Part shown: one piece after another, positions 4,971-27,647 of the stretch | Layout of the letters: the number at the start of each line of letters is the position of its first letter | How positions within the stretch are numbered: position 1 is the stretch's first letter | Origin: a virus | Virus record (IMG/VR): IMGVR_UViG_3300025280_000119 | Location: 1-29,126 of that record | Reading direction: 5' to 3' (one strand) | Length of the DNA: 29,126 nt | Translations under genes and position numbers: made by a program | Notes under the pieces: model-generated | Seen by the model: the letters and a program-made list of their open reading frames with translations, nothing else | What the model was told of the DNA's origin: nothing | Databases searched by the model: none

Positions 4971-6206
4971 ATGGCAAAGTATCCTACCTACATAACACCC
5001 CTGGGTAAAAATAACCAAAAAGCAAAATTTGCGTTTGATCAGAGAAGTTTATATAAAAATGATTTATTTTTACCGCATCATCAAGATAATTTAATTGATT
5101 TTTGGTATGGAAATCAAAATTATGGTAAACTTAATTCTGATAATGAATGTGTATTTTTGCTTGAAAATCGTTTAAAACAAATAAACGCAGACAAAACCAT
5201 ATTTGTGCTTAATTTTGTAGCAGATGCATATCACGATATGATTAAAGAATTGCAACTTAAATTTTTATCATTTGATATACCAACAAAAAATACATTTTTA
5301 GCAGCTATAAAGCCAACATCGGGCTGGAGCAGCGTTCACCATCATCATCATATAGCCATGAAAGCCTTATATAAACAACTGGCTAGAACCTTTTTTAATA
5401 AACAGGGTCACGGGCAACATGTACTTGATTTTAATTCTTTCATGGATAAATTTATGCAGTATTATGCGCGAACAGGACAAATTGCACCCATGACTAAAAC
5501 TGGTTTTATAAAGACTAAGAAAGCTTTACCAAACCAGTCGGGATTAATAATAAGCCTAGCTGATGAAGATTGCAGCAATGATATAGTCAAATTTTTTAAA
5601 TACATTAATGATGGTGCATTTGATACGTATTATAATGTAGCTAAGAAATATGGCTTTTATCTAGATAAAAACGCTCCATGGCGTTTAGTGGCTAATATAC
5701 ACTCCAACAGGATGAAAAAGTATATGAGAAGATACCATTTCCGACCAAAGAATCTATATGAACAGTGTTATATGAAAGCTAGCGATATGGACATTCAAAC
5801 ATTACAAATTTATATAGTACAATTCTACAACAGCTATGCAAAGGAATTTCCCACATCTAGAGTAAAAACCGTAACAAACGATGGCATTAAATATGCGCAA
5901 GCAAGAAGAACAGAAATAAATTTAGATCACATACTTGAAAAATATGATTCAGGATACTGGCTCTCGCTATATGCTAAAATGAGAAATATAGAGCAAGGAT
6001 ATATACTAAACGACTCGCAACTTAACGATCTTGTAAAAATCGCAATAGAAATGGAAAAACAATTTGACATTACGGGCGCAACAAGTTATATTAATACTAA
6101 GTTTCATGACACTGCCGAATCCGCCGCCGTTGCATCTACACAGACTGCCGCCTCTTCCTTTACCCTTGGCAGAGCAGGGCGTCTCACTCCGCGCCAAAAT
6201 GGCTAA
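4971..6206 (+). CDS. Uncharacterised protein, possibly virion-associated
   Basis: This 411-residue protein is not recognised with confidence. It is rich in Lys, Tyr, Asn and Phe and has no signal peptide or membrane segment. A segment 'VLNFVADAYHDMIKEL' (about residues 79-95) reminds me of structural proteins of T4-like aquatic phages, but this is a weak resemblance. Residues 123-127 are five consecutive histidines. The last 45 residues are Ala/Thr/Ser-rich and end in a basic tail (GRLTPRQNG). No exonuclease or polymerase motifs were found, so it does not look like the missing N-terminal half of the neighbouring polymerase. The ribosome binding site is weak. A consensus sigma70-like promoter for the downstream genes lies inside its 3' end (6064-6092). 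Confidence 0.6.
   Translation: MAKYPTYITPLGKNNQKAKFAFDQRSLYKNDLFLPHHQDNLIDFWYGNQNYGKLNSDNECVFLLENRLKQINADKTIFVLNFVADAYHDMIKELQLKFLSFDIPTKNTFLAAIKPTSGWSSVHHHHHIAMKALYKQLARTFFNKQGHGQHVLDFNSFMDKFMQYYARTGQIAPMTKTGFIKTKKALPNQSGLIISLADEDCSNDIVKFFKYINDGAFDTYYNVAKKYGFYLDKNAPWRLVANIHSNRMKKYMRRYHFRPKNLYEQCYMKASDMDIQTLQIYIVQFYNSYAKEFPTSRVKTVTNDGIKYAQARRTEINLDHILEKYDSGYWLSLYAKMRNIEQGYILNDSQLNDLVKIAIEMEKQFDITGATSYINTKFHDTAESAAVASTQTAASSFTLGRAGRLTPRQNG
6064..6092 (+). promoter_or_regulatory. Sigma70-like promoter inside a coding region, upstream of polA
   Basis: TTGACA at 6064-6069, a 17-nt spacer and TATATT at 6087-6092. It lies within the 3' end of the preceding gene, 125 nt before the family-A polymerase start, and would drive the polymerase, tubulin-like and membrane-protein genes separately from the tail module. 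It could be a chance match within coding sequence. Confidence 0.5.
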
Positions 6207-6216
6207 TTGGTATTAA

Positions 6217-7407
6217 ATGCCTTTTCAAATATTAGACAATAAACAAAAATGTATTGGATATTATGCAGACGGTTCTCTTATTTATGATAAGGTGCCGGAT
6301 GCAAGAAAGCAAACATGGGAATATTCATCACATTTAAAACAACGATGCGATATCGAATATGCAAAATTATTTTGCAATGGAAAAACACTAGACGAAGTTT
6401 GTCCTGATAATATTAAAGATAGTTTTGATGACATATCATTATCTTTAAAAGCATATTTTCGCTCTTTTATTGAGGCAAAAATTAGTCTAGATGATAATTG
6501 TTTTTTTGAAATGGTCCCGGAAAAATTTCTATTAGAATTTTGCGACATTAAAAATAAAATAACAACTCACGTTTTACAGCATTACAATAAGCCGCAAAAT
6601 TATGATTTTCTTGTAAATTTGACAAAATGTGTAGCTGACATACAATCACAAAAATTGTATATTGATGCCCATAATCTACAGCCTATCGCACATAAATTGA
6701 AAACAAGGAACTTTCTAAGGAAAATAAAACAAACCAAACCGTATTGTGAATATAATATATTTGGAACAAAAACGGGGCGCTTAACAAACAGAAAAGGTAG
6801 TTTTCCCATATTGACATTAGATAAGGAATTTAGGAACATCCTATCGCCAAAAAATGATTGGTTCATAGAATTAGATTACAATGCTGCAGAACTAAGAACA
6901 ATGCTGTCTCTTCTAGACAAAGAACAGCCTAATGTGGATATCCATGAGTGGAATGCTGCAAATGTTTATAGAGGCTTGGTATCAAGAGAAGAAGCAAAGA
7001 AAAGAATATTTGCTTGGCTATATAATCCCAATTCTAATGATCGTCTATCAGAAAGAGTATATAATAGGGATTCTATACTAAGTACTTATTGGGACGGTTA
7101 TAATGTACGAACAAGATTCAACAGGAGCATCCCTAGCGATCATCATCATGCTCTCTCTTATATTATTCAAAGTAGCTGTGTGGACAACGTGCTTAGACAA
7201 ATTATCAAAATCCACACTAAACTCAACAGATATGATACACGAATTGCATTCACCTTACATGACTCCATCATTCTCGACATGCCCGACTCAGAACGATCCA
7301 TATTGCCAGAAATAATTGATCTATTTTCTGATACTGAAATGGGCAAATTTTGCGTTAATGTTAAGGCAGGCAAAAAATTTGGTGAACTTAAAAGGTTAAA
7401 ATTATAA
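6217..7407 (+). CDS. polA: Compact family-A DNA polymerase, no exonuclease domain
   Basis: This 396-residue protein carries the family-A polymerase palm and fingers motifs in order. TGRL (186-189) precedes motif A, ELDYNAAELR, with catalytic Asp220 and Glu225. The O-helix follows RxxxKxxxFxxxY exactly (Arg257, Lys261, Phe265, Tyr269). YIIQSS has Gln318, and motif C is LHDS (348-350). The usual HDE is HDS here, but the metal-binding Asp349 is kept. Phe at the O-helix position predicts discrimination against dideoxynucleotides (family knowledge). No 3'-5' or 5'-3' exonuclease domain is present; the first 170 residues are unrecognised. At 396 residues it is far shorter than T7 (about 700) or E. 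coli Pol I (about 930). It begins 11 nt after the previous gene with a poor ribosome binding site. It may be a repair or gap-filling enzyme, since a DnaE subunit is also encoded. Confidence 0.85.
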   Translation: MPFQILDNKQKCIGYYADGSLIYDKVPDARKQTWEYSSHLKQRCDIEYAKLFCNGKTLDEVCPDNIKDSFDDISLSLKAYFRSFIEAKISLDDNCFFEMVPEKFLLEFCDIKNKITTHVLQHYNKPQNYDFLVNLTKCVADIQSQKLYIDAHNLQPIAHKLKTRNFLRKIKQTKPYCEYNIFGTKTGRLTNRKGSFPILTLDKEFRNILSPKNDWFIELDYNAAELRTMLSLLDKEQPNVDIHEWNAANVYRGLVSREEAKKRIFAWLYNPNSNDRLSERVYNRDSILSTYWDGYNVRTRFNRSIPSDHHHALSYIIQSSCVDNVLRQIIKIHTKLNRYDTRIAFTLHDSIILDMPDSERSILPEIIDLFSDTEMGKFCVNVKAGKKFGELKRLKL

Positions 7408-7408
7408 C

Positions 7409-8254
7409 ATGGACACAATTATAGGCTTAGGACAAGCGGGCTGCAATATTGCCGAAAAATTTAGCAATTACCCACAATATACCATCTATAAAATAGATAC
7501 AGATCTGGAAGAAGACCATAGAGAAAACGTATATACTTATTCAATATCGTCAGAAAACCATCCAGAAGAATATGAACAAAATTGTCCCGATTTTGATGAT
7601 TTTTTTGTAAATGCTAGCGATAATATTTTATTTATCTGCTGTGGTGCAGGATACATATCTGCCATGGCGTTAAGAATTTTAACATTCTTAAAAAACAAAA
7701 AAATCAATATTTTGTATATTAAGCCCGATATAGAGTTGTTGGGAATAGTTGAACGACAACATGAAAAAGTGGTATATAATGTTTTACAGGAATATGCAAG
7801 AAGCGGTGTTTTTAAAAATGTATATTTGGTCAATAATCTACTTGTACAGAAATTATTAGGAGATTTAACAATAATTGAGTATTATGATAAGATCAATGCT
7901 TTTATTGCCAACACGATGCACATGCTTAATGTTTATATGCACAATAAGCCTGTTTATGATTCATATTCTGAATCATATGATACTACTAGGATTTCTACAA
8001 TTGGCATATTAGACATTGAGTCTAATGAAGAAAAATATTTATTTTCACTTGCCAAGACCAAAGAAAAATGTTATATTTATGCTATCAATAAACAACAAGT
8101 TGAGACAGATGGGACACTGTTTAGCAATTGCATAGAAAATGTTAAACAAAGGTCAGAAAACGGAACAATAAAGACAAGCTTGGGAATTTATTCTACGCAG
8201 TACGAACAAAATTATGCATATATAATTGCATTATCCCAAGACATTCAGGAGTAA
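7409..8254 (+). CDS. Divergent tubulin/FtsZ-superfamily protein
   Basis: The 281-residue protein starts with IIGLGQAGCNIAEKF (residues 4-18), the T1 phosphate-loop pattern of tubulin, TubZ and FtsZ, followed by a second strand ending in IDTD (29-32; FtsZ has NTD here). A hydrophobic strand, 'ILFICCGAGYISAMALRIL' (73-91), sits where FtsZ/tubulins carry GGGTGSG and the following helix. Then come INILYIKPD (99-107), a helix with ER.HEK, 'VYLVNNLLVQKL' (138-149, like FtsZ 'LI.IPNDKLL') and 'YYDKINAFIANTMHML' (158-173, like 'DAF..AN.VL'). The order matches the FtsZ GTPase domain closely, but the Gly-rich T4 loop is shortened to CCGAG and the T7-loop Asp is not obvious, so GTP hydrolysis may be altered. 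It could alternatively be another Rossmann-fold nucleotide-binding protein. It begins one base after the polymerase stop and ends two bases before a membrane-protein gene. Confidence 0.65.
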   Translation: MDTIIGLGQAGCNIAEKFSNYPQYTIYKIDTDLEEDHRENVYTYSISSENHPEEYEQNCPDFDDFFVNASDNILFICCGAGYISAMALRILTFLKNKKINILYIKPDIELLGIVERQHEKVVYNVLQEYARSGVFKNVYLVNNLLVQKLLGDLTIIEYYDKINAFIANTMHMLNVYMHNKPVYDSYSESYDTTRISTIGILDIESNEEKYLFSLAKTKEKCYIYAINKQQVETDGTLFSNCIENVKQRSENGTIKTSLGIYSTQYEQNYAYIIALSQDIQE

Positions 8255-8256
8255 AA

Positions 8257-8520
8257 ATGTTGAAAAAAATACTACAAAGAATCCGTGCCTTTTTCGCAAG
8301 ATATATGACTATATTTAAATATTTAATTTTGGTTGTAGCACTTAGTGTGGCACTATTTACTGTAGCAAGTAGTAGTTATGAAAAAGGTGTTGATCAAGGA
8401 AAAGCACTCGGGCATTGTAGACTAATGTGTATGATGGTGGGTTATTATGATTATGAAGTAGATCAAGAACTTGATTGTTGGTGTTATGATGATACCTCAT
8501 ATTTTCTTATGCCTTTCTAA
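8257..8520 (+). CDS. Small single-pass membrane protein with Cys-rich tail
   Basis: This 87-residue protein has a basic amphipathic start (MLKKILQRIRAFFARYM) and a single hydrophobic segment (about residues 22-40, YLILVVALSVALFTVASSS). A polar tail holds four cysteines (CRLMC, then CWC). By the positive-inside rule the N-terminus should be cytoplasmic and the Cys-rich tail outside the membrane. No family is recognised. It starts three bases after the tubulin-like gene's last sense codon region, so the two are probably translated together, and a functional pairing is possible. It is not an obvious holin or spanin: there is no lipobox, and no lysis gene is adjacent. Confidence 0.6.
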   Translation: MLKKILQRIRAFFARYMTIFKYLILVVALSVALFTVASSSYEKGVDQGKALGHCRLMCMMVGYYDYEVDQELDCWCYDDTSYFLMPF

Positions 8521-8644: not shown

Positions 8645-9412
8645 ATGGCAATTGATATGAATAAAATGAGGCAGCGTAAAGCTGCTTTGGAAAGCCGTGG
8701 AAGCGGTGGTAATGGGTCGCAGTTTTGGCGTCCACAAGATGGGGAGCAAACAATCCGTATTGTTCCCAACAATGATGGAGATCCTTTCAAGGATTTCTGG
8801 TTTCATTATAATGTAGGAGACAACGCAGGTTTCCTAAGTCCCAAGAAGAATTTCGGAGAAGATGATCCGCTTGATGACTTTGTTCGTAAGCTTTTTAAGG
8901 AAGGCACCGAAGAGAGCATTAAGATGGCGAAAAGCCTTATGGCACGCCAACGGTTTTTTGCTCCGGTAATTGTTCGCGGAGAAGAACATAAGGGAGTCCG
9001 TATTTGGGGATTTGGCAAGATGGTTTACGAACAGTTGATTAATCTTGTGCTTAACCCGGAATATGGCGATATTACTGAACCAGACACAGGAACCGATCTT
9101 GTGCTGCACTATGGCAAGCCCCAAGGCGCGTCATTCCCGCAAACAAAGTTGACTCCTCGTCGTCGTCCCTCGCCGTTATGTGACGATGCCGTAGGTGGTC
9201 CTGATCGATGCGCAGAACTGTTGGAAAACATTCCTGACATTGATACGATGTTTGAGCGTAAAACACCTGATGAGGTGGGTACTATGCTTGATGCATATCT
9301 TCTTGACGAAGAAGGCACCGAGAATGAGTCTAGTGAAACGGTTAAATACAGTGCTACTACTGATGAACCGACTAGTGTAGATGCCGCCTTTAATGAACTA
9401 ATGGGCGCTTAA
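8645..9412 (+). CDS. gp32: Single-stranded DNA-binding protein (gp32-like)
   Basis: The 255-residue protein begins with a basic segment, MNKMRQRKAALESRG (residues 5-19), matching the LAST/self-association N-terminus of T4-type gp32. A core follows with 'FWRPQDGEQTIRIVPN' and 'HYNVGDNAGFLSPKKNFGEDDP', patterns typical of gp32 homologues in T4-like phages. It ends in an acidic tail (about 215-255), which in gp32 recruits replication partners. The Cys3His zinc site of T4 gp32 is not visible: only two cysteines exist (in SPLC and DRC). It is shorter than T4 gp32 (301). It would coat single strands and organise UvsX, helicase and polymerase. The start has a strong ribosome binding site (AAGGAG) and follows the strongest promoter in the window. 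Codon use looks more GC-balanced than in its neighbours, as for a highly expressed gene. Confidence 0.8.
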   Translation: MAIDMNKMRQRKAALESRGSGGNGSQFWRPQDGEQTIRIVPNNDGDPFKDFWFHYNVGDNAGFLSPKKNFGEDDPLDDFVRKLFKEGTEESIKMAKSLMARQRFFAPVIVRGEEHKGVRIWGFGKMVYEQLINLVLNPEYGDITEPDTGTDLVLHYGKPQGASFPQTKLTPRRRPSPLCDDAVGGPDRCAELLENIPDIDTMFERKTPDEVGTMLDAYLLDEEGTENESSETVKYSATTDEPTSVDAAFNELMGA

Positions 9413-9437: not shown

Positions 9438-9482
9438 GAGGCACGGGGACGGAAACAAACAAAAGTTTCTAATAGGTGCCTC
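9438..9482 (+). other. Possible hairpin between SSB and uvsX
   Basis: GAGGCAC (9438-9444) can pair with GTGCCTC (9476-9482) around a 31-nt loop, followed by ACATTTTT. It could attenuate transcription between SSB and uvsX, which would explain lower recombinase expression. The long loop and only 7 bp make it weak. It covers the alternative GTG (9476) upstream of the preferred uvsX start. Confidence 0.3.
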
Positions 9483-9505
9483 ACATTTTTAACATCGAGG
9501 ATATA

Positions 9506-10627
9506 ATGAGAATGGCAAAGAACACTTCAAAGCCTGGAAAATTGAGCATAGCAGACATGCGCTCACTTATTAATAAAAGGGCTGGGCAAGAAGTAGCACA
9601 CAATTTAAAAGAAGATAACCCCACAGAAGTAATAGACTGGATTCCCACTGGCTCCAGATGGCTTGATTCGATTGTGTGTCGTGGCAAGCTTGCTGGTATT
9701 CCGCTAGGAAAAACAGTAGAAATTGCAGGCTTAGAGGCGACAGGTAAAAGTTATATGGCGGCACAAATAGCTGCCAATGCTCAAAAAATGGGAATTGATG
9801 TAATTTATTTTGATAGCGAATCTGCAATTGATCCTTCATTTTTGGAAAGAGCAGGATGCGAACTAGACGATTTATTGTATATTCAAGCTACATCTGTTGA
9901 GTTTGTTTTGGAGACTGTAGAAGAATTATTGGGCAGTAATGATAATCGCATGCTGTTCATTTGGGATTCTTTAGCGCTGACACCGGCAATATCGGATATA
10001 GAGGGCGATTTTAACCCACTATCATCTATGGCTGTGAAAGCACGAATCTTAGCTAAAGGCATGTCCAAATTAACAGTTCCAATTGCAAACTCGCAATCAA
10101 CTTTCTTAGTTTTGAACCAGCTTAAGACTAATATTACTCGCTCTCCTTCGGAAGCGATGACCACGCCCTATATGACACCGGGCGGCAAAGCAATGATATA
10201 TGCGTATTCATTGCGTATTTGGCTAACAGGGAGAAAAGCAAAGGCTAGTTTTGTTCTTGATGATAAGGGCTTTCGAATTGGGTCCGAAGTTAAGGTTAAA
10301 TTAGAAAAATCACGCTTTGGGACACAAGGAAGACAATGTAATTTTAGAATCTTATGGGGATCTGAAATTGGTGTGCAAGACGAAGAATCATGGTTCGACG
10401 CTATTGGATCATCCGACAGACTGTTGCGTACTGGAGCATGGTACACACTTCTAGACAAACAGGGCGAACCAATTGGAAGTAAATTCCAGGCAAGCAAATG
10501 GGCTGAAAAGCTATCAGATGAAGAATTTCGTGCAAACGTTTTAGACATCATGGACGAAGAAGTAATTATGAAATTTGATAAACGCGAAGGAGATGCAGAA
10601 GAATTTTATGGAGAAGAAGGAATATAA
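9506..10627 (+). CDS. uvsX: UvsX/RecA-family recombinase
   Basis: From ATG 9506 (ribosome binding site GAGG at 9497-9500) the protein has 373 residues; an in-frame GTG at 9476 would add ten. Walker A is GLEATGKS (residues 75-82), Walker B is MLFIWDS, and the RecA core includes YFDSESAID, a Gln-containing strand LVLNQLKTN and the L2-like 'TTPYMTPGGKAMIYAYSLRIWL'. These order and spacing features fit T4 UvsX and phage RecA-like proteins. The C-terminus is acidic (DAEEFYGEEGI). It would form a filament on ssDNA, driving strand exchange and recombination-dependent replication together with the gp32-like SSB just upstream. Its stop overlaps the start of the next gene (TAATG). Confidence 0.92.
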   Translation: MRMAKNTSKPGKLSIADMRSLINKRAGQEVAHNLKEDNPTEVIDWIPTGSRWLDSIVCRGKLAGIPLGKTVEIAGLEATGKSYMAAQIAANAQKMGIDVIYFDSESAIDPSFLERAGCELDDLLYIQATSVEFVLETVEELLGSNDNRMLFIWDSLALTPAISDIEGDFNPLSSMAVKARILAKGMSKLTVPIANSQSTFLVLNQLKTNITRSPSEAMTTPYMTPGGKAMIYAYSLRIWLTGRKAKASFVLDDKGFRIGSEVKVKLEKSRFGTQGRQCNFRILWGSEIGVQDEESWFDAIGSSDRLLRTGAWYTLLDKQGEPIGSKFQASKWAEKLSDEEFRANVLDIMDEEVIMKFDKREGDAEEFYGEEGI

Positions 10628-15228: not shown

Positions 15229-17635
15229 AGAAGAAATATTTGAAAAGACATTAGAGTATTTTAATGGGGATGAGCTAGCTGCAAATGTTTGGATCACTAA
15301 ATATGCATTGAAAAACAAGGAATCAGGTTATGATGAAGCAACACCGCAAGACATGCATGAAAGATTGGCAAAAGAATTTGCGAGAATTGAAAAACAGTTT
15401 GGCAGCGATAGAGCCTTATCGTATGAAGAGATACTAGCTTTATTTGAAAATTTTAAATATGTTGTGCCTCAAGGCTCTCCCATGATGGGCATTGGAAATA
15501 ATTATGTCAATGTATCATTATCTAATTGTGTAGTTGTTGACTCTCCTAAAGATAATATCTCTTCTATTGTCGATTCTGGCAAATATCTAGCCAATCTGTT
15601 TAAGAGAAGGTGTGGCGTAGGAGTTGATATTAGCAATTTGCGCCCCGAAGGAACAACCGTTAATAATTCTGCAGGAACCACAACTGGTGCATGGTCATTT
15701 GCTGATTTTTATTCTTATATCTGTAGAATGATAGGGCAAAATGGTCGTCGTGGTGCTCTTATGATTAGTATGGACGTGCGCCACCCCGATATTGAAAAAT
15801 TTATAACTATGAAGCACGATTTAACAAAAGTGACCGGAGCCAATGTTTCAATTAAAATATCTGATGATTTTATGGAAGCGGTAGAGGCAAATGAAGACTT
15901 TACACTTCGATATCCCGTTGATTCTAGCGAACCTAAATATAGCCGCACAATCAAAGCCTCCGAGCTTTGGCAAACGATTATAGCATCCGCGACGAAAACA
16001 GCGGAACCAGGACTTTTAATGTGGGGGAATGTTCAAAAATATCTCCCTGCGGAATCATATGCCGATGATGGGTTTAAGACTTTAACAACAAATCCTTGCG
16101 GAGAAATTCCCTTGTCTGCTTATGATAGTTGCAGATTGATATCTATTAACTTAAAAAACTTTGTTAAAAACAAATTTGAAGACGACGCCCGTTTTGACTT
16201 TAAACATTTTAAAAAAGTCGTTACAAGCGCGATGAGATTGTCAGATGATTTAGTAGAACTTGAAATCGAAAAATTACAAAACATAATCAACGTGTGTGAT
16301 ACACCAGACGAAAAAGAGCTGTGGACAAATTTATTAAACGCTTGTATAAATGGCAGAAGAACAGGGCTAGGCACCCACGGACTGGCTGATGCAATTGCGT
16401 GTTTACGTCTATCATATGATAGTGATGATGCTTTAAAGATTATTGAGCGTATATATAAAACTTTAAAAATTTCTGCTTATACAGAAAGTGCGAGACTCTC
16501 CGACGAACGAGGGAGCTTCCCAGTGTTTAATTGGGACAAGGAAAGAAAAAACAACTTTATACAAAATCTACCAAAAGAATTGCAACTTCTAATTGCACAG
16601 TGTGGTAGAAGAAATATATCGATATTGACCAATGCCCCTACTGGTTCTGTATCCATTATGTCACAAACATCATCAGGATTAGAGCCTGTATTTAGAAACA
16701 GATACACTAGACGCAGAAAATTATCGCACAATGAGGATGATATTAAGCCTGATTTTGTAGACGACTTGGGAGACAAATGGCTTGAATATGAAGTTTTTCA
16801 CCATAACGTACAAGAATTTTTTGATTTGTATGGGAGTGATGTGGTACCATCATTTTTTATTGAATCAGATCAGATTGATTGGCAAAGAAGAGTTGATGTG
16901 CAGTCTGTTATTCAAAAACATATTGATCATTCTATTAGCTCTACTATAAATCTTCCAAAGGACATTTCCACAGATATTGTTGGGGATTTATATTTTCAAG
17001 GATGGAAAGCGGGACTTAAAGGGATAACAGTTTATGTTGAAGGTTCGCGTTCTGGTGTTCTAATATCCGAGCTTGAAACCGATGCTAGATTCCCGCACCA
17101 CACTGCTACAAAAAGACCAACAGAGTTACCTTGTACCATACACCACGCCACTATCGAAGGTGAAAAATGGGTAGTATTGGTTGGTATTTTTGACAATAAA
17201 CCATATGAAGTTATGGGCGGATTATCAACATATGTTGAAATTCCTACAAAATACAAGGAAGGAACGTTAATTAAACATCCTCGCAAGACCATGAATTCTA
17301 AATACGATTTAAAATTTGGAGAGAATGGTGATGAAATTATAATTAAAGATATTGTAAAAGTATTCGACAATCCAAATCACTCTGCATTTACTCGCTTAAT
17401 TTCATTGGGCTTGAGACATGGCGCAAATATACAATATGTTGTAGAACAGCTATACAAAGATAGAGATAGCGATATGTTTAGTTTTGCAAAATGTATTGCC
17501 AGAGTACTTAAAAGCCATATTACAGATGGCTCCAAGGCAAATGGTATTATCTGCGATTCTTGTCAATCTAATTCTTTAATATATATTGAAGGGTGCATCA
17601 CCTGTAATAATTGTGGTTGGTCAAAATGCGGATAA
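15221..17635 (+). CDS. nrdJ: Class II (B12-dependent) ribonucleotide reductase
   Basis: From ATG 15221 (AAGGAG upstream) the protein has 804 residues. The frame extends 34 codons further upstream, but that lies inside the helicase gene. Redox Cys103 is in LSNC, catalytic NPCGEIPL has Asn291, Cys293 and Glu295, and YDSCRLISIN gives the partner redox Cys304. 'NAPTGSVSIM' and 'SSGLEPVF' follow, and a C-terminal zinc-ribbon-like tail has six Cys (CDSC, CITC, NNC, SKC). There is no ATP cone at the N-terminus and no beta-subunit gene next door, both in keeping with class II. It makes deoxynucleotides for phage DNA and needs adenosylcobalamin, so host or environmental B12 is implied. It is co-transcribed with the helicase and is followed 10 bases later by a co-chaperonin. 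Confidence 0.9.
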   Translation: MHKEEIFEKTLEYFNGDELAANVWITKYALKNKESGYDEATPQDMHERLAKEFARIEKQFGSDRALSYEEILALFENFKYVVPQGSPMMGIGNNYVNVSLSNCVVVDSPKDNISSIVDSGKYLANLFKRRCGVGVDISNLRPEGTTVNNSAGTTTGAWSFADFYSYICRMIGQNGRRGALMISMDVRHPDIEKFITMKHDLTKVTGANVSIKISDDFMEAVEANEDFTLRYPVDSSEPKYSRTIKASELWQTIIASATKTAEPGLLMWGNVQKYLPAESYADDGFKTLTTNPCGEIPLSAYDSCRLISINLKNFVKNKFEDDARFDFKHFKKVVTSAMRLSDDLVELEIEKLQNIINVCDTPDEKELWTNLLNACINGRRTGLGTHGLADAIACLRLSYDSDDALKIIERIYKTLKISAYTESARLSDERGSFPVFNWDKERKNNFIQNLPKELQLLIAQCGRRNISILTNAPTGSVSIMSQTSSGLEPVFRNRYTRRRKLSHNEDDIKPDFVDDLGDKWLEYEVFHHNVQEFFDLYGSDVVPSFFIESDQIDWQRRVDVQSVIQKHIDHSISSTINLPKDISTDIVGDLYFQGWKAGLKGITVYVEGSRSGVLISELETDARFPHHTATKRPTELPCTIHHATIEGEKWVVLVGIFDNKPYEVMGGLSTYVEIPTKYKEGTLIKHPRKTMNSKYDLKFGENGDEIIIKDIVKVFDNPNHSAFTRLISLGLRHGANIQYVVEQLYKDRDSDMFSFAKCIARVLKSHITDGSKANGIICDSCQSNSLIYIEGCITCNNCGWSKCG

Positions 17636-17645
17636 GGAGGATAAA

Positions 17646-17927
17646 ATGATTGTTCCATGTAATAGGTACGTTTTAATACAACCTATAGTAAACCAAATTG
17701 AAGAGAATTCCAATATTCTTTTACCAGAAGATTATGAGCCAGAGGAGTCTGCCTACGTGAGAGCAGAAGTGCTTGATTGGGCGAATGACTGTAAAATAGA
17801 ACTAGAGGAGAACTGCATAGCAGTAGTCACAAGACACATGATAGAAGAGGTAAATATTGATGATACAACACATTATCTTGTTCTCGAAAATCATATTATT
17901 GCTATGATTCCACAAAACAACTTATGA
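17646..17927 (+). CDS. groES: GroES/gp31-like co-chaperonin
   Basis: This 93-residue protein (GroES is 97) starts at ATG 17646 with a perfect AAGGAGG. It shows the Cpn10 layout: 'RYVLIQPIV' as the first strand, and a mobile-loop region with NILLPEDY (residues 23-30) where GroES has a Gly-Gly-Ile-Val-Leu loop. A charged roof region follows, then 'CIAVVTRHMIEEV' and the closing strand 'HYLVLENHIIAMI', equal to GroES 'YLI...DILAIV'. T4 gp31 replaces GroES so that GroEL can fold the major capsid protein; the same use is likely here. The loop is divergent, so I rely on strand order and length. Its stop overlaps the next gene by 4 bases. Confidence 0.75.
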   Translation: MIVPCNRYVLIQPIVNQIEENSNILLPEDYEPEESAYVRAEVLDWANDCKIELEENCIAVVTRHMIEEVNIDDTTHYLVLENHIIAMIPQNNL

Positions 17928-18427
17928 TATATTGGCGAAAAATATTAATTTTACTCACACTACTTGCAGCGGTTTATTCCGCGCAAGCGGTGGCAGCTAA
18001 ACCATTAGCAACTAATTTCACACTACGTGATATTAATGGTCGATCCTACGTCTTGTCAGAACACCGTGGTGAAATTATAATATTAAACTTTTGGGCAACA
18101 TGGTGTGGACCGTGTGCCTTGGAGCTACCACATTTAAATACAATTGCAAAAAAATATGCAGAGAACAATGTTAGTGTTGTTGTTGTAAGCATCGACGCAG
18201 CTAGAAATGCTTCACGGGCAAAGTCATATATACGAGCTAGAAATTATGTATTTACCGCGCTGCACGACACTGATACCACAGTTGTATCACAATACCATCC
18301 ATCAAAAACTATTCCTTTTACTGTTATAATCGATCAAAAGGGAGCAATTGTGTATCAACAAGTTGGATATTCTCCTGGTGATGAACAAGCTTATATTGAT
18401 ATAATTGAGAATTTGTTGCGCATATAA
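17924..18427 (+). CDS. Exported TlpA/ResA-like thioredoxin
   Basis: The 167-residue protein begins with a signal peptide (about residues 1-25: hydrophobic ILILLTLLAAVY, then AQAVAA as a cleavage site). The thioredoxin domain follows, with 'NFWATWCGPC' (Cys61 and Cys64) and cis-Pro131 in TIPFTVIID. 'FTLRDINGRSYVLSEHRG' is the usual AhpC/TlpA entry strand. TlpA-type proteins reduce periplasmic disulfides, for example in cytochrome c maturation. A phage copy with an export signal is unusual: as it stands it cannot serve the cytoplasmic RNR two genes upstream. It could keep an envelope or lysis-related protein reduced. The ATGA overlap with the co-chaperonin shows coupling. Confidence 0.85.
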   Translation: MIYWRKILILLTLLAAVYSAQAVAAKPLATNFTLRDINGRSYVLSEHRGEIIILNFWATWCGPCALELPHLNTIAKKYAENNVSVVVVSIDAARNASRAKSYIRARNYVFTALHDTDTTVVSQYHPSKTIPFTVIIDQKGAIVYQQVGYSPGDEQAYIDIIENLLRI

Positions 18428-19327: not shown

Positions 19328-20220
19328 TTGAACCCAAACCATTTATATCCAAAGGATTTCACCTAGCGGGTATTGTCCCAGTTGCGGGTCCATCCCATGA
19401 CTTTAATTTTGATTGGCACGACTCTTTGATGCCGATATCACAAAATTATACTGCGGTGGAAAGATCGATAATGGAATGTGCCTGGGCAGGTTGTGAAACA
19501 ATATGGATTGTATGTAATGACGATATAGCACCATTAATTAGACATAGGCTGGGAGAGTGGGTACAGGATCCAGTTTGGTATGGAAGAAGTTTAGAAATTA
19601 ATCCAAGTCTGCATAGAAAGCCAATACCAATATATTATGTCCCAATTCATCCAAAAGATCGTAAAAGAGTTGATTCATATTCTTGGAGCGTTCTGTATGG
19701 TGCCTTAACAGCGTATTGGATTAGCAAACAAATGTCTCAATGGATTATACCAGATAAGTTTTATGTTTCTTTTCCATATGGCATATATCCACCAATTGTC
19801 GTAAGAAAACACAGAAAGACAATATCAAGCGCACGCACATTTGCATTATCATATAATGGCAAAACAGTAAAAGATAATGAATATTTAGGATTCACCTTTG
19901 ATTCACAAGATTTTATTAATTGTCGAAAAACTGTTCGGCAAGAAGGCACAAGATTATGGAAGAATAGTGGTGAGGAAATTCCAACTGAAAAATTACCACT
20001 TGAAAAACGTTGGTCTTCACGTAATTTTACACTTGACAAAGTATTTAAATCAGTTATAATAGAAGATGAGCCCATACAATTAGATTGGTATTATAATATC
20101 GATTGCTGGGATGGGTATTGTTCGTATATAGGTTCAGACAAACGATGGGAAATACAAAGACCCAATAAGGAGATACTTAATTATCATGAATGGAACGGAA
20201 TCGGAATCGATGAGGAATAA
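19324..20220 (+). CDS. Possible sugar-nucleotidyltransferase-fold protein
   Basis: The 298-residue protein has an N-terminus reading 'LAGIVPVAGPSHDFNFDWHDSLMPI', then 'AVERSIMECAWAGCETIWIVCNDDIAPLIRHRL'. This resembles GT-A-type nucleotidyltransferases: a first strand with a Gly-rich loop, substrate-dependent 'D.LMPI', then a helix and the 'C..IWIVCND' strand. The consensus 'GGxGTR' loop is absent, so activity is doubtful. The remainder is Trp- and Tyr-rich, with 'HPKDRKRVDSYSWSVLYGALTAYW'. It is coupled to the gene before it and overlaps dnaE by 35 bases. A promoter for dnaE sits inside its 3' end. Confidence 0.5.
   Translation: MIEPKPFISKGFHLAGIVPVAGPSHDFNFDWHDSLMPISQNYTAVERSIMECAWAGCETIWIVCNDDIAPLIRHRLGEWVQDPVWYGRSLEINPSLHRKPIPIYYVPIHPKDRKRVDSYSWSVLYGALTAYWISKQMSQWIIPDKFYVSFPYGIYPPIVVRKHRKTISSARTFALSYNGKTVKDNEYLGFTFDSQDFINCRKTVRQEGTRLWKNSGEEIPTEKLPLEKRWSSRNFTLDKVFKSVIIEDEPIQLDWYYNIDCWDGYCSYIGSDKRWEIQRPNKEILNYHEWNGIGIDEE
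20033..20060 (+). promoter_or_regulatory. Sigma70-like promoter inside coding sequence, upstream of dnaE
   Basis: TTGACA at 20033-20038, a 16-nt spacer and TATAAT at 20055-20060, both hexamers perfect. It lies 126 nt before the dnaE start, inside the preceding gene, and would allow separate expression of the polymerase. Confidence 0.7.
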
Positions 20221-23200
20221 ATCAAAAATACCCTTTGTTGGGCTTCACGCGCATAGTGTCGCAGGTTCTATATTTGACGCTATAGGATATCCGCAGGAGC
20301 ATATGGATTTTGCGTATCAAAACGGCACCGATGCGCTAGCTCTTACAGATCACGGCAATATGAACGGCTTGGCTTATCAAGTGCTGCATGCTAAAAAGAT
20401 GCAGACAGATGGCAAAGAATTTAAGCCCATATTTGGATGCGAGGCATACTTTATTCCTTCGCTTTCTGAATGGCGCGACGAATATCAAAAAGCAATGTCT
20501 GACAAAAAACAAGCCCGTTCTGCAAAAAAGGACAAAGCTTCTGGGACAACCGTAGAGAATGAAGGTGATAGCAAGCGCGTACAAGACCTTCTTCGCCGTC
20601 GCAGTCATTTAATTCTCCTTGCCCAAAATCAGAAAGGGTTGCAAAATATTTTTAAATTAATATCTGAAAGTTATGAAGCAGAAAATTTCTATCGATATCC
20701 TCGCATGGATTATGATATGCTTGCCAAATATAGCGAAGGCGTAATTGCGGCATCGGCATGTCTTGGCGGCGTATACGCTAGTAATTACTGGCAAGCCAGC
20801 ACTTATGACGAAGATGGGAAATATGTAGACACCAATATTGATATAGCATTAGACTTAATGCGCGAAACTACACAAAATATGGTAAAGATTTTTGGTGACC
20901 GCTGGTATGGCGAACTCCAATGGAATAATATTAAGCAGCAACATGAACTTAATAAATGCATTATCACAATGAAAGAAGAATTTGGAATTAATCTTATTTC
21001 GACAGCAGATAGCCACTATCCAAATAAGACAGCTTGGAAAGATCGTGAGCTTTATAAACGCTTGGGCTGGTTAGGAAAAACTAAGCCAGATTATGGAAAT
21101 GGAGAATTACCGGCAGGCGTGGATGAAATTGGATATGAGCTTTATCCTAAAAATGGCGACGAAATGTGGGCAAGTTATAAACAATATTCAAAACAATGCG
21201 GTTTTGAGTATGATGATGACTTGGTACTAAACTCGATCACCAACACTTATAATATTGCTCACGAGCGTATTGAAAAGTTTCTCCCAGACAATACAGTCCG
21301 ACTTCCAGATTTTGTTGTCCCTGCTGGCTTTACGGCTAATGAGGCGCTTGCTAATATATCTCTGGAGGGTTTGAGAGATAAGAATTTGCACGATAATGCA
21401 GAATACATGAAAAGATTACGTCATGAATTAGATGTAATTAGTGGCAGGGGATTTTCGAAATATTTCTTGACAATGAAAGCGGTTGTGGACAAAGCCAATA
21501 ATAGCATGCTTACTGGTCCCGGTCGTGGCTCGGCAGCAGGCTCTTTGGTTGCTTATGTGTTAAATATTACACAAATCGATCCGATTAAATACGGTTTGCT
21601 ATTTTCTCGATTCTTACGGTCTGATACCACTGATTATCCAGATATTGATTACGATGTAAGTTCCCCTATGGAATTAAAAGAGCAGCTTATTGAAGAATGG
21701 GGTGACTCAACAGTTGTCCCAATATCAAATTGGAACACTCTTCAACTTCGTTCTTTGGTTAAGGATATATCTAAATTTTATGGCGTGCCATTTAAAGAAG
21801 TGAATGAAGTAACAGGCAAAATGCTTTTAGAGGCAACACCTGCAGCAAAGAAGGCACACGGAATTAAGGCAGGCGTATATGTGCCTACATTCGAAGAAGT
21901 TAAAGAATATAGCCCGACGTTAGGAGCATTTTTAAAGAAATATTCCAACATTGCCAATCATATTGATGTACTTTATGGACAAGTGCGTTCTTGTTCTCGC
22001 CATGCCGGGGGAGTTGTTATAGGTGAAAACCTTGATAAATGGATGCCCTTAATCAACAGCAAGGGCGTTCGTCAAACTCCTTGGGCAGAGGGGCAGAACG
22101 TTCGCCATCTTGAGCCATTGGGATTTATTAAGTTTGATATTTTGGGACTTTCGACCCTCGCTATGATCGATGGCGCAATACGTCATATTCTTAAGCGGCA
22201 CCACCACAATGCAGATCCAACTTTTGCCGATGTAAGCAATTATTATAATAAGTATCTACATCCGGGTGCTATCGATTTAAACAATGCTGATGTTTATAAC
22301 AATATATTTCATGATGGAAAGTGGGCAGGAATATTCCAGTTTACAGAAAAGGGCGCACAGACATTCTGTGAAAGAGCCAAACCAACAAGTATCATTGACA
22401 TTGCAGCCATTACATCTATTTTCCGCCCTGGTCCTTTGTCTGCAAAGGTAGATGATGAATATGTTGGAGCTAAGGAAAGCCCACAATATATAAAATATAT
22501 TCACCCATTGATTGAGGAAGTCACACAAGAGACGTATGGATTTTTAATTTTTCAAGAGCAAATCGCCATTCTAGCACATAAGCTTGGAAAAGACGTATCG
22601 CTTGATGAGGGAAATAAACTTCGTAAGCTGCTGACTAAAAAGGGAAGCGGCAAAGGTTATGAAGCCAAGATGAAAATCCATAAGAAATTTATTGAAGGCT
22701 GTGTAGAAAAGGAAATTAAGCGCGATGTGGCACAAAGTATATGGGATAAGTTTGAATATTTTTCTGGCTATGGGTTTAACAAATCTCATGCTGTGTCGTA
22801 TTCAATAATATCATATCAGTGCGCTTGGTTAGCTCACCATTACCCAGCGGAGTGGATGGCTGCATTTCTAGATAAAGAACCAGAAAGCAGAAAAGAAAAA
22901 GCCATCAATATAGCAAAGGGGTTTGGATTTAAAATTGAATCTTTAAACATTAATACATCTGGCACAGTTTGGGAAATTTCCGAAGATGGTCATACATTAA
23001 TTCAGCCACTGACTTCAATAAAAGGACTTGGTGAAGTTGCAATTGATCAGATTATAAAGAATAGACCATTTAATGTTGTTGAGGATTTTCTGTTCAATGA
23101 CGATATTATTTACAGCAAGCTCAATAAAAAAGCGCTAGATGTGCTAGTCCGCTCCGGTGCCATGAACTATCTTGTAGACAGCAGATTTACAGGGTTAAAG

Positions 23201-23665
23201 CATTTTTGGTCAGCCATAGCGGTAGATCGACCAAGAAAATTAAAAAACTTGGAAGACAACATCAAGCTGTATGCGCCAGAAGGCGACTTCTCGGATGAGG
23301 AAAAAATTCAATACTTAGCAGATTTAACAGGGACATTCCCAATGGCGAAAGTAATGACTCACGGCATAAGGCAAAAACTTAATGATATGTTTATCCCGCC
23401 AATTGGAGAGTTCGATTCGGAATTACAAGTTACATGGTTTGTGCCAAGGAAAATCATTCCCAGAAAAACTAAACATGGAAGCGACTATTGGCTTGTTGAA
23501 GTCATTGATGATACAGGCGCAGTCATTAATATTAAATGCTGGGGAATTAAAAAAGGATATGATCTTTTAATGTTGAACAAGCCCTATATGGCTAAGCTAG
23601 ACTATAACGAGCAGTGGGGATTCTCCACCAGATCAATAAGACATAATTTTAAATTATTGGGATAA
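20186..23665 (+). CDS. dnaE: DNA polymerase III alpha subunit (DnaE type)
   Basis: This full-length 1,159-residue enzyme (E. coli DnaE is 1,160) opens with a PHP domain: LHAHS (20-24), ALTDHGNM (52-59) and TADSHY. The polymerase palm has 'GPGRGSAAGSLVAY' and PDIDYD with catalytic Asp488 and Asp490. 'RHAGGVVIG' follows, then KFDILGL with the third catalytic Asp651, 'FRPGPL', 'FQEQIAILAHKLG' and 'GYGFNKSHAVSYSIISYQCAWL'. The helix-hairpin-helix part has 'IKGLGEVAIDQIIKNRPF', and an OB fold lies near the C-terminus. It is likely the main replicative polymerase. ATG 20186 has AAGGAG 13 nt upstream; ATG 20210 is an alternative. No sliding clamp, clamp loader or epsilon subunit is in the window; the PHP metal site could provide proofreading, which is inference. 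Confidence 0.95.
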   Translation: MNGTESESMRNKSKIPFVGLHAHSVAGSIFDAIGYPQEHMDFAYQNGTDALALTDHGNMNGLAYQVLHAKKMQTDGKEFKPIFGCEAYFIPSLSEWRDEYQKAMSDKKQARSAKKDKASGTTVENEGDSKRVQDLLRRRSHLILLAQNQKGLQNIFKLISESYEAENFYRYPRMDYDMLAKYSEGVIAASACLGGVYASNYWQASTYDEDGKYVDTNIDIALDLMRETTQNMVKIFGDRWYGELQWNNIKQQHELNKCIITMKEEFGINLISTADSHYPNKTAWKDRELYKRLGWLGKTKPDYGNGELPAGVDEIGYELYPKNGDEMWASYKQYSKQCGFEYDDDLVLNSITNTYNIAHERIEKFLPDNTVRLPDFVVPAGFTANEALANISLEGLRDKNLHDNAEYMKRLRHELDVISGRGFSKYFLTMKAVVDKANNSMLTGPGRGSAAGSLVAYVLNITQIDPIKYGLLFSRFLRSDTTDYPDIDYDVSSPMELKEQLIEEWGDSTVVPISNWNTLQLRSLVKDISKFYGVPFKEVNEVTGKMLLEATPAAKKAHGIKAGVYVPTFEEVKEYSPTLGAFLKKYSNIANHIDVLYGQVRSCSRHAGGVVIGENLDKWMPLINSKGVRQTPWAEGQNVRHLEPLGFIKFDILGLSTLAMIDGAIRHILKRHHHNADPTFADVSNYYNKYLHPGAIDLNNADVYNNIFHDGKWAGIFQFTEKGAQTFCERAKPTSIIDIAAITSIFRPGPLSAKVDDEYVGAKESPQYIKYIHPLIEEVTQETYGFLIFQEQIAILAHKLGKDVSLDEGNKLRKLLTKKGSGKGYEAKMKIHKKFIEGCVEKEIKRDVAQSIWDKFEYFSGYGFNKSHAVSYSIISYQCAWLAHHYPAEWMAAFLDKEPESRKEKAINIAKGFGFKIESLNINTSGTVWEISEDGHTLIQPLTSIKGLGEVAIDQIIKNRPFNVVEDFLFNDDIIYSKLNKKALDVLVRSGAMNYLVDSRFTGLKHFWSAIAVDRPRKLKNLEDNIKLYAPEGDFSDEEKIQYLADLTGTFPMAKVMTHGIRQKLNDMFIPPIGEFDSELQVTWFVPRKIIPRKTKHGSDYWLVEVIDDTGAVINIKCWGIKKGYDLLMLNKPYMAKLDYNEQWGFSTRSIRHNFKLLG

Positions 23666-24254: not shown

Positions 24255-25796
24255 ATGGAAAATTACACAACAGACAAGACAGAACAATTTGAGATTGATC
24301 CACATATTGGAAAATTATTTGATATTGTAATACCTCACATGGGACATGATATATCTAGCGCATTTATGGATTTGTTAGATAATAGCGACGACGCCGATGC
24401 CGAGAATATGCACATTTTCATTAATTCACCACCCGGCACCAATGCCACTATTGGCAGCTACATGCTTGCTGATGACGGCGACGGAATGAACCTGCACAAA
24501 CTTAAAGAATCATTCCGTTTTGCGACAACTTCGCCTCACGCACAAGGCGATTTGGGCAAATTTGGTGTGGGAGGCACCGCTGCATGCTTTACTGTGGCAG
24601 ATACTAAGACAACAATCACTAAAACAAAGGATGGCAAGAAAATTCTAGTAGCCAAATTTGATCGGCGTGACAAGAAGACTACCCAGGCAACATTGCGAGC
24701 CCCCGCACCGGAAGAGGTAGATTTGTTCAACGAATTATGTCCAAAGGGGCATGGAACAATTACTGTGTTAGAAAATCTTAAGGAGCCAATGCAATATACT
24801 CGCCCAGGTGATCTGAAAAATAAATTGCTTAAGGATATTGGTACTTGTTACCATCTACGCCTAGGTAAAAATAAAAAAATATATGTTTCTGTTAATGGAA
24901 AGCAAACAAAGGTTAAGCCTGTAGATCCGCTATTCTGGGGAAATGAGGATATTGTGATTAATAAATATCATGATAAAATAGAATTTGATGGCTGTAACAT
25001 AACTCTGCGTTTTGTGGAATTAAACACAGAACTTTTGCCATCAACACAAAAAGGATATAACCATCAAGGCATATATATTGCACGGTCAAATCGCATTATT
25101 GTGTGCGGGGGAGATCTCGGATTATGGAAAAGAAATCCTCTTTATAATGCTGGTCGTGTCGAAATTTCCTTTACTGAAGATCTAGATGATGATTTTGGAA
25201 TTGGAGCACTTAAAAATAGTGTTAAAATAAAACAGGCTTTAAGGGACGTTCTTATGGAAAAGATTAAAAAATTTCGAGCACTATTACAATCTAAATATAA
25301 GCTTGGTTCAAAATCCGTGCCCGCGAAGATTAAAGCATCAGAGGCGGCATTTGTTAAATTGCTTATGGATAATGCGGGTTCACTAAATTTGCCACGCTCC
25401 TCTAACAGTGGTACAAAACCGCCATCGAATGGGAGCGGCGCTACCAGCGAGCAGCAAAGGGGCACTGGAAACCCGCGAGGCTCCTATAAACCTCGTAACC
25501 GTATTTGTCCTGAATTCAGGCATATAGAATGCCCTCGCAGCAATCTTCCATATTGGAGCGAATGGGAAGACGAGAATGGAGAGCCACAGATGGTGTGCCT
25601 CATTAATACATCCAATGAGTATATTAAGGAATATTATCTTGCCGGATCTGTAGAAACCCAGAACGTTCTTCGAAGGCACTGGGCTGCTGATTTATTGGCA
25701 CAATGGGAATTTTATGATACGAAAGAGTTTTCTACAATTCAATCGCTTCAAGAATCACGAGCAGAAAAATTAAATAAACTCCATCGCGTCATTTAA
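24255..25796 (+). CDS. GHKL-fold ATPase (MORC/Hsp90-like), unknown role
   Basis: The 513-residue protein has the Bergerat ATP-binding site. The N-box is 'FMDLLDNSDDADA' (Asn43), G1 is ADDGDGMN (Asp73, DxGxG) and G2 is GKFGVGG (101-107). The layout resembles MORC, Hsp90 and MutL-type ATPases rather than histidine kinases. The catalytic Glu of the usual ELxxNS is Asp39 here. Residues about 190-320 look like a second alpha-beta transducer domain, with a Lys-rich segment. A Pro/Ser/Gly-rich linker (about 375-415) leads to a C-terminal domain with 'ICPEFRHIECPRSNLPYW' and Trp-rich segments. It may act on DNA or on protein complexes. It does not look like a complete topoisomerase: no TOPRIM or cleavage partner is adjacent. 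It begins with a good ribosome binding site (TAGGAG). Confidence 0.75.
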   Translation: MENYTTDKTEQFEIDPHIGKLFDIVIPHMGHDISSAFMDLLDNSDDADAENMHIFINSPPGTNATIGSYMLADDGDGMNLHKLKESFRFATTSPHAQGDLGKFGVGGTAACFTVADTKTTITKTKDGKKILVAKFDRRDKKTTQATLRAPAPEEVDLFNELCPKGHGTITVLENLKEPMQYTRPGDLKNKLLKDIGTCYHLRLGKNKKIYVSVNGKQTKVKPVDPLFWGNEDIVINKYHDKIEFDGCNITLRFVELNTELLPSTQKGYNHQGIYIARSNRIIVCGGDLGLWKRNPLYNAGRVEISFTEDLDDDFGIGALKNSVKIKQALRDVLMEKIKKFRALLQSKYKLGSKSVPAKIKASEAAFVKLLMDNAGSLNLPRSSNSGTKPPSNGSGATSEQQRGTGNPRGSYKPRNRICPEFRHIECPRSNLPYWSEWEDENGEPQMVCLINTSNEYIKEYYLAGSVETQNVLRRHWAADLLAQWEFYDTKEFSTIQSLQESRAEKLNKLHRVI

Positions 25797-26351: not shown

Positions 26352-26650
26352 ATAGAAAACAAAAAAGAGCGCTAAATGCGCAAAATAAAAAAAACAACGC
26401 TAATGAAATAGTGAGCGAAAAATTAACATTATTTAATAAGCTTGGCGATGAGTGTCTAACTTGTGGCGAGGCTTTTGATAAACAGAATAAAGAAATGGTT
26501 AATGAATGGTATGTGATCGTTAGGCAAGAAGAAGAAAAAGTAAATCTTTATTGCCCCCCTTGTTGGGATCGAGCACAAAATATTGTAGAGAACTTTATGT
26601 CGCATATAGAAAGTGAGGTAGAAGATGATACAGAAAGCACTGACGTTTGA
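26348..26650 (+). CDS. Small Cys4 (zinc-ribbon-like) protein
   Basis: The 100-residue protein starts at GTG, overlapping the methyltransferase stop. It has a basic N-terminus (MNRKQKRALNAQNKKN) and two CxxC knuckles (Cys36/Cys39 in CLTC, Cys69/Cys72 in CPPC), and ends acidic. Two CxxC pairs about 30 residues apart suggest a single zinc site. 'FDKQNKEMVNEWYVIVRQ' lies between the pairs. I think related small proteins occur in T4-like phages, but no function is known to me. It overlaps the next gene by 26 bases. Confidence 0.7.
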   Translation: MNRKQKRALNAQNKKNNANEIVSEKLTLFNKLGDECLTCGEAFDKQNKEMVNEWYVIVRQEEEKVNLYCPPCWDRAQNIVENFMSHIESEVEDDTESTDV

Positions 26651-27647
26651 TGATATATTATTAGTTCCACAATATAGCAATATTAAAAGCAGAGGCGAAA
26701 TTGATATTGGCAACAATCTAGATGCCAATTTGCAATTATCGCTCCCGATCATAGCCAGCCCCATGGACACTGTGTGTGAAGGCTCTATGGCTAACCATAT
26801 GAGCCGCAATGGTGGATTGGGCATTATACACCGATATAACACTATAGATGAACAAGTACAGCATGTTGCCAGTGCCAAAGATAATACCAATCAAACTGTC
26901 GGAGCCGCTGTCGGCGTCACTGATGATTTTGAAGAAAGAGCATGCGCACTTAAAGATGCAGGGGTAGATGTAATTTGTGTGGATATAGCTCATGGACATC
27001 ACATTTTAATGAAAAGAGCACTAGTCATACTTAAGGATATGTTTGGAGATTCAATACATATTATGGCTGGAAACGTAGCTACAAAAGAAGGCGTATGTGA
27101 TTTGGTAAGATGGGGAGCAGACAGTATTCGTGTGGGCATAGGAGGCGGCTCTATATGCTCTACTAGGATACAGACTGGTCATGGCGTTCCAAATTTGGCT
27201 GCAATCATGGAATGTGCACAAGCAGAATTAGAACACCCAGTCCCTCTTATTGCAGATGGTGGTATCAAAAATCCTGGCGATATTGTTAAAGCGCTGGCTC
27301 TCGGTGCAGATTTTGTTATGGTAGGTTCACTATTGGCAGGCACTATTGAAACTCCAGGAGATATTATTTATTCTAGCGATAATAGTAAATATAAAACTTA
27401 TAGAGGCATGGCTAGCAAAGATGCACAAATGAACTGGAGAGGGCGCGTGTCTTCGCTAGAGGGAGTATCCACATTTGTCCCATTACGCGGCAGCGTAGCA
27501 GATATTTTGCAAGGCTTAGATCGTAGCATTCGTAGTGGATTTTCGTATAGTGGTGCACATAATATACAAGAATTTAGAGAAAAAGTAAAATTTGTTATGC
27601 AAACATCGGCTGGGCTAACAGAAAGTCGAACTCATATAATTAAATAA
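26625..27647 (+). CDS. guaB: IMP dehydrogenase / GMP reductase family enzyme without CBS domains
   Basis: The 340-residue (beta/alpha)8-barrel protein starts 'ALTFDDILLVPQYS'. The active-site loop is GGGSICSTR (Cys178) where the family has GPGSxCTTR, then 'TGHGVP', IADGGI (Asp211), 'GADFVMVGSLLAGT', YRGM (259-262) and a C-terminus 'FVMQTSAGLTESRTHI'. These residues are closer to IMPDH than to GMPR. The two CBS domains are absent. The flap after YRGM is only about 18 residues and lacks the Arg-Tyr pair that activates water in IMPDH, so the reaction could be GMP to IMP (GMPR) instead. The loop Pro is replaced by Gly. It would adjust the guanine nucleotide pool. ATG 26625 has GAGG upstream; it overlaps the Cys4 gene by 26 bases. 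Confidence 0.85.
   Translation: MIQKALTFDDILLVPQYSNIKSRGEIDIGNNLDANLQLSLPIIASPMDTVCEGSMANHMSRNGGLGIIHRYNTIDEQVQHVASAKDNTNQTVGAAVGVTDDFEERACALKDAGVDVICVDIAHGHHILMKRALVILKDMFGDSIHIMAGNVATKEGVCDLVRWGADSIRVGIGGGSICSTRIQTGHGVPNLAAIMECAQAELEHPVPLIADGGIKNPGDIVKALALGADFVMVGSLLAGTIETPGDIIYSSDNSKYKTYRGMASKDAQMNWRGRVSSLEGVSTFVPLRGSVADILQGLDRSIRSGFSYSGAHNIQEFREKVKFVMQTSAGLTESRTHIIK

Follow-up and report, generated by a model that had tools for sequence, protein, structure and literature searches.

The stretch of viral DNA analysed here (IMG/VR record IMGVR_UViG_3300025280_000119, positions 1 to 29,126; hereafter the window) contains a replication module in which a 281-aa protein of predicted tubulin/FtsZ fold is encoded from 1 bp past the stop codon of a family-A DNA polymerase ORF. 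The genes of this module considered below are:

6217–7407, + strand: 396-aa family-A DNA polymerase domain, with which the replication module begins (Pfam DNA_pol_A, E 6.7e-13)
7409–8254, + strand: protein of predicted tubulin/FtsZ fold, 281 aa (from the ORF, an AlphaFold2 model, Foldseek and IMG/VR relatives)
8257–8520, + strand: small membrane protein-like ORF, 87 aa (relatives in some loci only, in one sub-clade)
8645–9412, + strand: gp32-like single-stranded-DNA-binding protein, SSB (Pfam gp32, E 3e-12)
9476–10627, + strand: RecA/UvsX-like recombinase (Pfam RecA, E 5e-35; PHROG UvsX-like)

Conservation and genomic context of the tubulin-like gene

Profile-guided scans identified relatives of the 281-aa protein on at least 585 and at least 580 confirmed IMG/VR contigs, all told uncultured and mainly marine, and the 64 relatives that were aligned share 36–48% identity with it. 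Ratios of dN/dS between close pairs range from 0.03 to 0.11, showing that the gene is under purifying selection; given these values and the relatives on at least 580 contigs, the ORF represents a real, conserved gene. With single sequences as queries, Pfam, PHROGs, PDB and INPHARED returned nothing useful, and searches of this kind would miss the family: no match was found in 50,697 phage records, in PHROGs or among PDB sequences, and Pfam yielded TrkA_N at E 0.047 and nothing else. PADLOC also gave no match, the family is unnamed in every annotation library used (Pfam, PHROGs, NCBIfam and PADLOC among them), and no published description of it was found in the open-access papers searched. RNA families and tRNAs were absent from the window. 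Among 84,980 bacterial and archaeal genomes, we identified a single match to the tubulin-like protein, in a WOR-3 MAG chromosome (CP070664.1; L091, 7514–13200), where a phage fragment of ~5.5 kb bearing polA, tubulin-like, SSB and RecA genes is flanked by bacterial genes, with N runs at its edge. We read this fragment as a likely chimeric scaffold of the public genome and rejected it as evidence of a cellular origin or of a host.

Genomic context was surveyed at 161 loci of the tubulin-like gene. A gp32-like SSB gene lies downstream on the same strand in all 142 loci with room to see it (within 900 bp in 139), and a polymerase gene is found no more than 500 bp upstream in 117 of 133, bearing out the initial annotation, which had placed the gene beside a phage family-A polymerase. 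The recurring gene order is polA, tubulin-like gene, SSB, RecA/UvsX, exonuclease and DnaB helicase. Within the polymerase, the motif A Asp, the O-helix R/K and the motif C HD are invariant in 24 relatives, and its length of ~400 aa leaves little room for an exonuclease domain. The next gene had been described as encoding a membrane protein, in agreement with a hydrophobic, membrane-spanning-like segment recognised by eye in the ORF at 8257–8520.

Upstream of polA, the window encodes a 411-aa protein (4971–6206) that is fast-evolving and conserved in position. Its model gave a weak match to VanY/VanXY-type D,D-carboxypeptidases (E 0.008), and it looks like the end of the tail module; it was rejected as a partner of the tubulin-like protein. 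In three relatives that lack the tubulin-like gene, the gap between polA and SSB is filled by members of a different family of small proteins of 104–151 aa (L289, 5675–6064; L290, 5785–6174; L291, 1346–1801), which share the motif HRKK.(S/T)NT(L/M)YTIN.LN.

Predicted fold and nucleotide site

An AlphaFold2 model of the 281-aa protein, generated from 65 sequences (pLDDT 96.7, pTM 0.93), contains the two-domain tubulin/FtsZ fold with its central helix H7. Foldseek searches of PDB with this model placed TubZ (4ei7) first, at E 1.4e-12 and a TM-score of 0.75 by query length, and the best 50 PDB matches were without exception TubZ or FtsZ, aligned over the whole protein; in a viral structure library, the top match was an uncultured-phage 'FtsZ' (E 1.3e-11, 15% identity). 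Sequence profiles gave fainter signals. The NCBIfam model matched by most of the 65 members was ftsZ (10 members, best E 0.03), Pfam Tubulin was matched by 7 (best E 0.0086), and an hhalign comparison of the family with FtsZ was collinear over residues 3–171 with a score of 27.3, which is marginal against 200 column shuffles (15.9 ± 3.0, maximum 28.6). Because sequence-level support is weak or marginal, it is mainly structure that carries the superfamily claim. On the predicted structure, the protein is a member of the tubulin/FtsZ superfamily, as the initial annotation had proposed, and the family forms an apparently new, minimal branch of it. The motifs on which that proposal drew are also present: GLGQAGC (residues 6–12), KID (28–30), the strand-helix at 72–92, and N143 with the H7 segment.

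The TrkA_N hit noted above as the sole single-sequence Pfam match, together with weak TrkA_N matches in 12 of the 65 members (against the 7 matching Tubulin), might point to a classical dinucleotide-binding Rossmann enzyme resembling FtsZ at its N-terminus only, but we consider this exceedingly unlikely and rejected it on the Foldseek results, in which no other Rossmann family came ahead of tubulin/FtsZ in PDB or the viral library and the Rossmann dehydrogenases and epimerases of the latter appeared at E > 1e-3 only; conservation of the H7 triad described below also argues against it.

Residue conservation was calculated over 94 non-redundant members (<80% identity), and the relevant elements of the gene are:

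7424–7444, + strand: T1 loop GLGQAGC, residues 6–12 (G6, G8 and G11 in 99–100% of the 94)
7640–7663, + strand: shortened T4 phosphate loop CGAGYISA, residues 78–85 (G81 93%, S84 93%)
7787–7804, + strand: family-specific QEYARS, residues 127–132, closing the helix that corresponds to H5 (96–100% of the 94)
7835–7837, + strand: T6 asparagine N143, a predicted guanine contact (97% N; paired with FtsZ N165 by hhalign)
7883–7897, + strand: H7 Y159-x3-N163, predicted guanine stacking and contact (Y/F 92%, N 98%)
7940–7987, + strand: T7/H8 region, residues 178–193 (no conserved Asp; no helix in the model by DSSP)

QEYARS and T1 are the best-conserved stretches of the family. The replacement of GGGTGSG by CCGAG that had been pointed out initially is present in the sequence; across the family, the T4 consensus is xGxGxISG, which departs from the GGGTG[TS]G signature and leaves a 2-residue gap against FtsZ GGGTGTG in the hhalign alignment. 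With the phosphate loop shortened in this way, the protein could have lost the ability to bind nucleotide or bind it differently. Unforced hhalign pairing aligned N143, Y159 and N163 with E. coli FtsZ N165, F182 and N186, the guanine-contacting residues that correspond to tubulin N206, Y224 and N228, and the whole triad (N143, an aromatic residue at 159, and N163) is found in 88 of the 94 members. Judged by these sequence features, the family probably binds guanine nucleotide.

The acidic residues of the catalytic T7 loop (NxDxxD; Glu in the case of alpha-tubulin) are absent from the 94 members, among which the best Asp column reaches 20%, confirming the earlier observation that no T7 catalytic Asp is evident. 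Residues 178–193 are among the less conserved parts of the family (mean entropy 2.31 bits), and the model forms no H8 helix despite a pLDDT of ~95 in this region. From the missing T7 acids, we infer that the usual GTP hydrolysis has been lost. An acidic residue occupies position 180 in 70% of members, though off the aligned place of the T7 acid, and might be a relocated catalytic acid. The initial view that a standard GTPase site seems to be missing holds for the hydrolysis-activating side, which is lost, and for the shortened T4, but is too strong as a whole because the guanine triad and the T1 glycines are almost invariant. Also strongly conserved are H171, N174 and R194 (95–98% of the 94 members), which by topology would lie, with QEYARS, away from the nucleotide side.

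The family thus shares with FtsZ the fold, the collinear T1-T4-T6-H7 arrangement and the guanine triad, and differs from it in T4, T7 and H8 as described, in the lack of a C-terminal tail, and in its marginal profile similarity. A divergent branch of the FtsZ superfamily that is missing some canonical elements, and for which filament formation is doubtful, has been reported in bacteria and archaea as FtsZl1, whose partners are VWA-domain proteins and membrane proteins (Makarova and Koonin 2010, PMC2875224). The part that is unrecognised in FtsZl1, T6-H7, is the same part that is kept in the 281-aa family.

Carrier phages

A T4-type gp23 capsid protein was identified in all 16 large contigs tested, which carry either the 281-aa family or the second tubulin-like family described below; no gp23 is present in the window itself. 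For one carrier (G006), the best isolate matches of gp23 were Flavobacterium phage immuto, Microcystis phage Mel-JY01 and Rhodothermus phage RM378, and the carriers are T4-related phages, probably of the Far-T4 type. RM378 is the cultured Far-T4 representative (PMC4360716), and Bacteroidetes have been proposed in silico as the hosts of a marine Far-T4 genome (PMC7198788); tubulin and FtsZ go unmentioned in both papers. The family profile matched nothing in immuto, Mel-JY01, RM378 or a 484-kb uncultured phage, and candidate relatives in the gap between polA and SSB of immuto, Mel-JY01 and the 484-kb record were rejected, as other proteins occupy it. The absence of the gene from these four phages indicates a feature of a sub-lineage. 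The carrier group is very common, widespread, uncultured and mainly marine.

Besides the family-A domain, the window encodes another polymerase, a DnaE-type (Pol III alpha) enzyme that is full-length at 1159 aa (20186–23665). A 340-aa dehydrogenase ORF (26625–27647; PHROG 9582) reads as the enzyme that opens the guanine nucleotide pathway, IMP dehydrogenase (GuaB), and shares the phage with the predicted guanine-binding tubulin-like protein. Also found were a 513-aa ORF (24255–25796) with a PADLOC match to MzaB (E 3.6e-8), probably via a GHKL-type ATPase domain; a GroES-like co-chaperonin ORF (17586–17927; PHROG 3188) overlapping a secreted thioredoxin-like ORF (17924–18427); and a very acidic 318-aa protein (28080–29036) with a repeated DSAALSRKAGGRG..GHEPRHRARGTVGDRP segment and no PHROG match.

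Candidate roles in phage replication and beyond

The invariant linkage to SSB and the linkage to the polymerase point to a role in replication, and the fixed place in the replication operon argues for a function in phage DNA metabolism. Our preferred reading, which we hold to be about evenly poised between right and wrong, is that of a tubulin-fold protein, predicted to bind guanine nucleotide and to be hydrolysis-incompetent, that serves replication as an accessory or scaffold; a non-hydrolysing scaffold had already been suggested in the initial annotation. The top face of the protein would bind guanine nucleotide; the protein would be unable to activate hydrolysis in a neighbouring subunit and would not build ordinary dynamic protofilaments. 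Stabilised by its nucleotide, it may assist the replication machinery or hold it together, with the conserved cluster of QEYARS, H171, N174 and R194 binding polymerase, SSB or DNA-associated complexes. Against a replication role, linkage of phage genes can reflect co-regulation alone, and the related phages immuto, Mel-JY01 and RM378 manage without the gene. More tentatively, at somewhat less than even odds, and by analogy, this would be a case of the tubulin fold being recruited to replication and away from any cytoskeletal role: the protein might be a non-hydrolysing, guanine-nucleotide-bound subunit that tethers or regulates the family-A polymerase and SSB at the phage fork, much as thioredoxin tethers and regulates T7 polymerase. 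We are not aware of any tubulin-superfamily protein that is known to be part of a replisome.

We consider it unlikely that the protein forms an unusual phage cytoskeletal filament, polymerising through a non-canonical interface and without GTP hydrolysis, that would hold phage DNA or replication foci in place or in clusters in the manner of PhuZ or TubZ. Such a filament would be in keeping with the fold, for which TubZ is the leading PDB match, and with the conserved residues of the nucleotide face, and the phage tubulins known so far (PhuZ and TubZ) form filaments that hydrolyse GTP and that transport DNA or set its position (PMC10299810, PMC7824862). However, the T7/H8 side, through which subunits canonically make their longitudinal contact, shows no conservation and is without H8 in the model, and the chain stops soon after the final strand of its C-terminal domain, leaving no tail like that of PhuZ or TubZ. 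TubZ of Bacillus plasmids and phages hydrolyses GTP and segregates DNA with TubR/tubC. The likeness to TubZ consists of the best PDB match (4ei7; 15% identity over the structural alignment) and of an extrachromosomal or viral location, whereas the 281-aa family lacks T7 and, in the model, H8, and has polA and SSB as its neighbours. PhuZ of the Chimalliviridae is likewise a phage-encoded protein of the tubulin superfamily, ~300 aa in length; the single PhuZ sequence used for comparison, that of 201phi2-1, retains GGGSGSV, and its profile alignment to FtsZ has a probability of 92%; for the 281-aa family, no profile alignment with PhuZ was obtained. Carriers of the 281-aa family further differ in their T4-type capsid protein and gene context. 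Finally, PhuZ uses a C-terminal helix and an acidic tail in filament formation, whereas the model of the 281-aa protein ends 5 residues past the last strand, with no extra helix.

A second phage FtsZ-like family, also of the tubulin superfamily, occurs in the same type of T4-related phage and sometimes in the same genome, as in contig G003 (165,872 bp), which also encodes a 364-aa FtsZ-like protein. This family differs in its length of 364 aa, in its FtsZ profile match at 97% probability, and in its canonical T1 (GVGGGGGK), T4 (GGGGTGS) and T7 (FDxKDLE, with an invariant Asp), motifs by which it is predicted to be catalytically intact. We identified it on more than 100 IMG/VR contigs, with no match in phage records; its members (L093, 1030–2121, − strand; also L096–L175) lie on large T4-type marine contigs, where the gene adjoins late sigma factor-like and baseplate-like ORFs. 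The 281-aa protein might be a cap, nucleator or regulator of this second FtsZ, its nucleotide face meeting the T7 face of the partner so as to end or seed filaments, somewhat like gamma-tubulin. The intact T4 and T7 of the partner and the presence of both families in six large contigs (G003, G015, G016, G017, G024 and G030) favour this role, which we nevertheless regard as quite improbable: the two genes lie far apart where both occur, and the 364-aa profile matched nothing in 12 plus 9 further carriers of 281-aa relatives, some of 184–194 kb (these contigs may be incomplete). With most large carriers showing no such partner, obligate partnership with a catalytic phage FtsZ was rejected as a general rule; in some phages, a partnership of the two families is possible.

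The initial annotation had also raised the idea of a decoy that would prevent division by binding the FtsZ of the host. Inhibitors of division are indeed encoded by phages, and a protein that keeps an FtsZ-like top face and is missing the T7 side could in principle poison FtsZ ends. Beyond the fold, this idea found no support and appears to us very improbable, since the gene is locked in the replication operon, between polymerase and SSB, across a large and deep family. The strongly conserved QEYARS is family-specific and not found in FtsZ, and the protein is not closely similar to cellular FtsZ, the 84,980 cellular genomes having yielded the one apparently chimeric match.

The family, left nameless by current annotation, is a potential marker gene for marine virology. 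It is a large family that appears to retain the base-binding half of the tubulin switch and to drop the hydrolysis half, while being locked to the SSB gene. This would demonstrate either a non-cytoskeletal use of the tubulin fold or the existence of tubulin scaffolds that work without hydrolysis.
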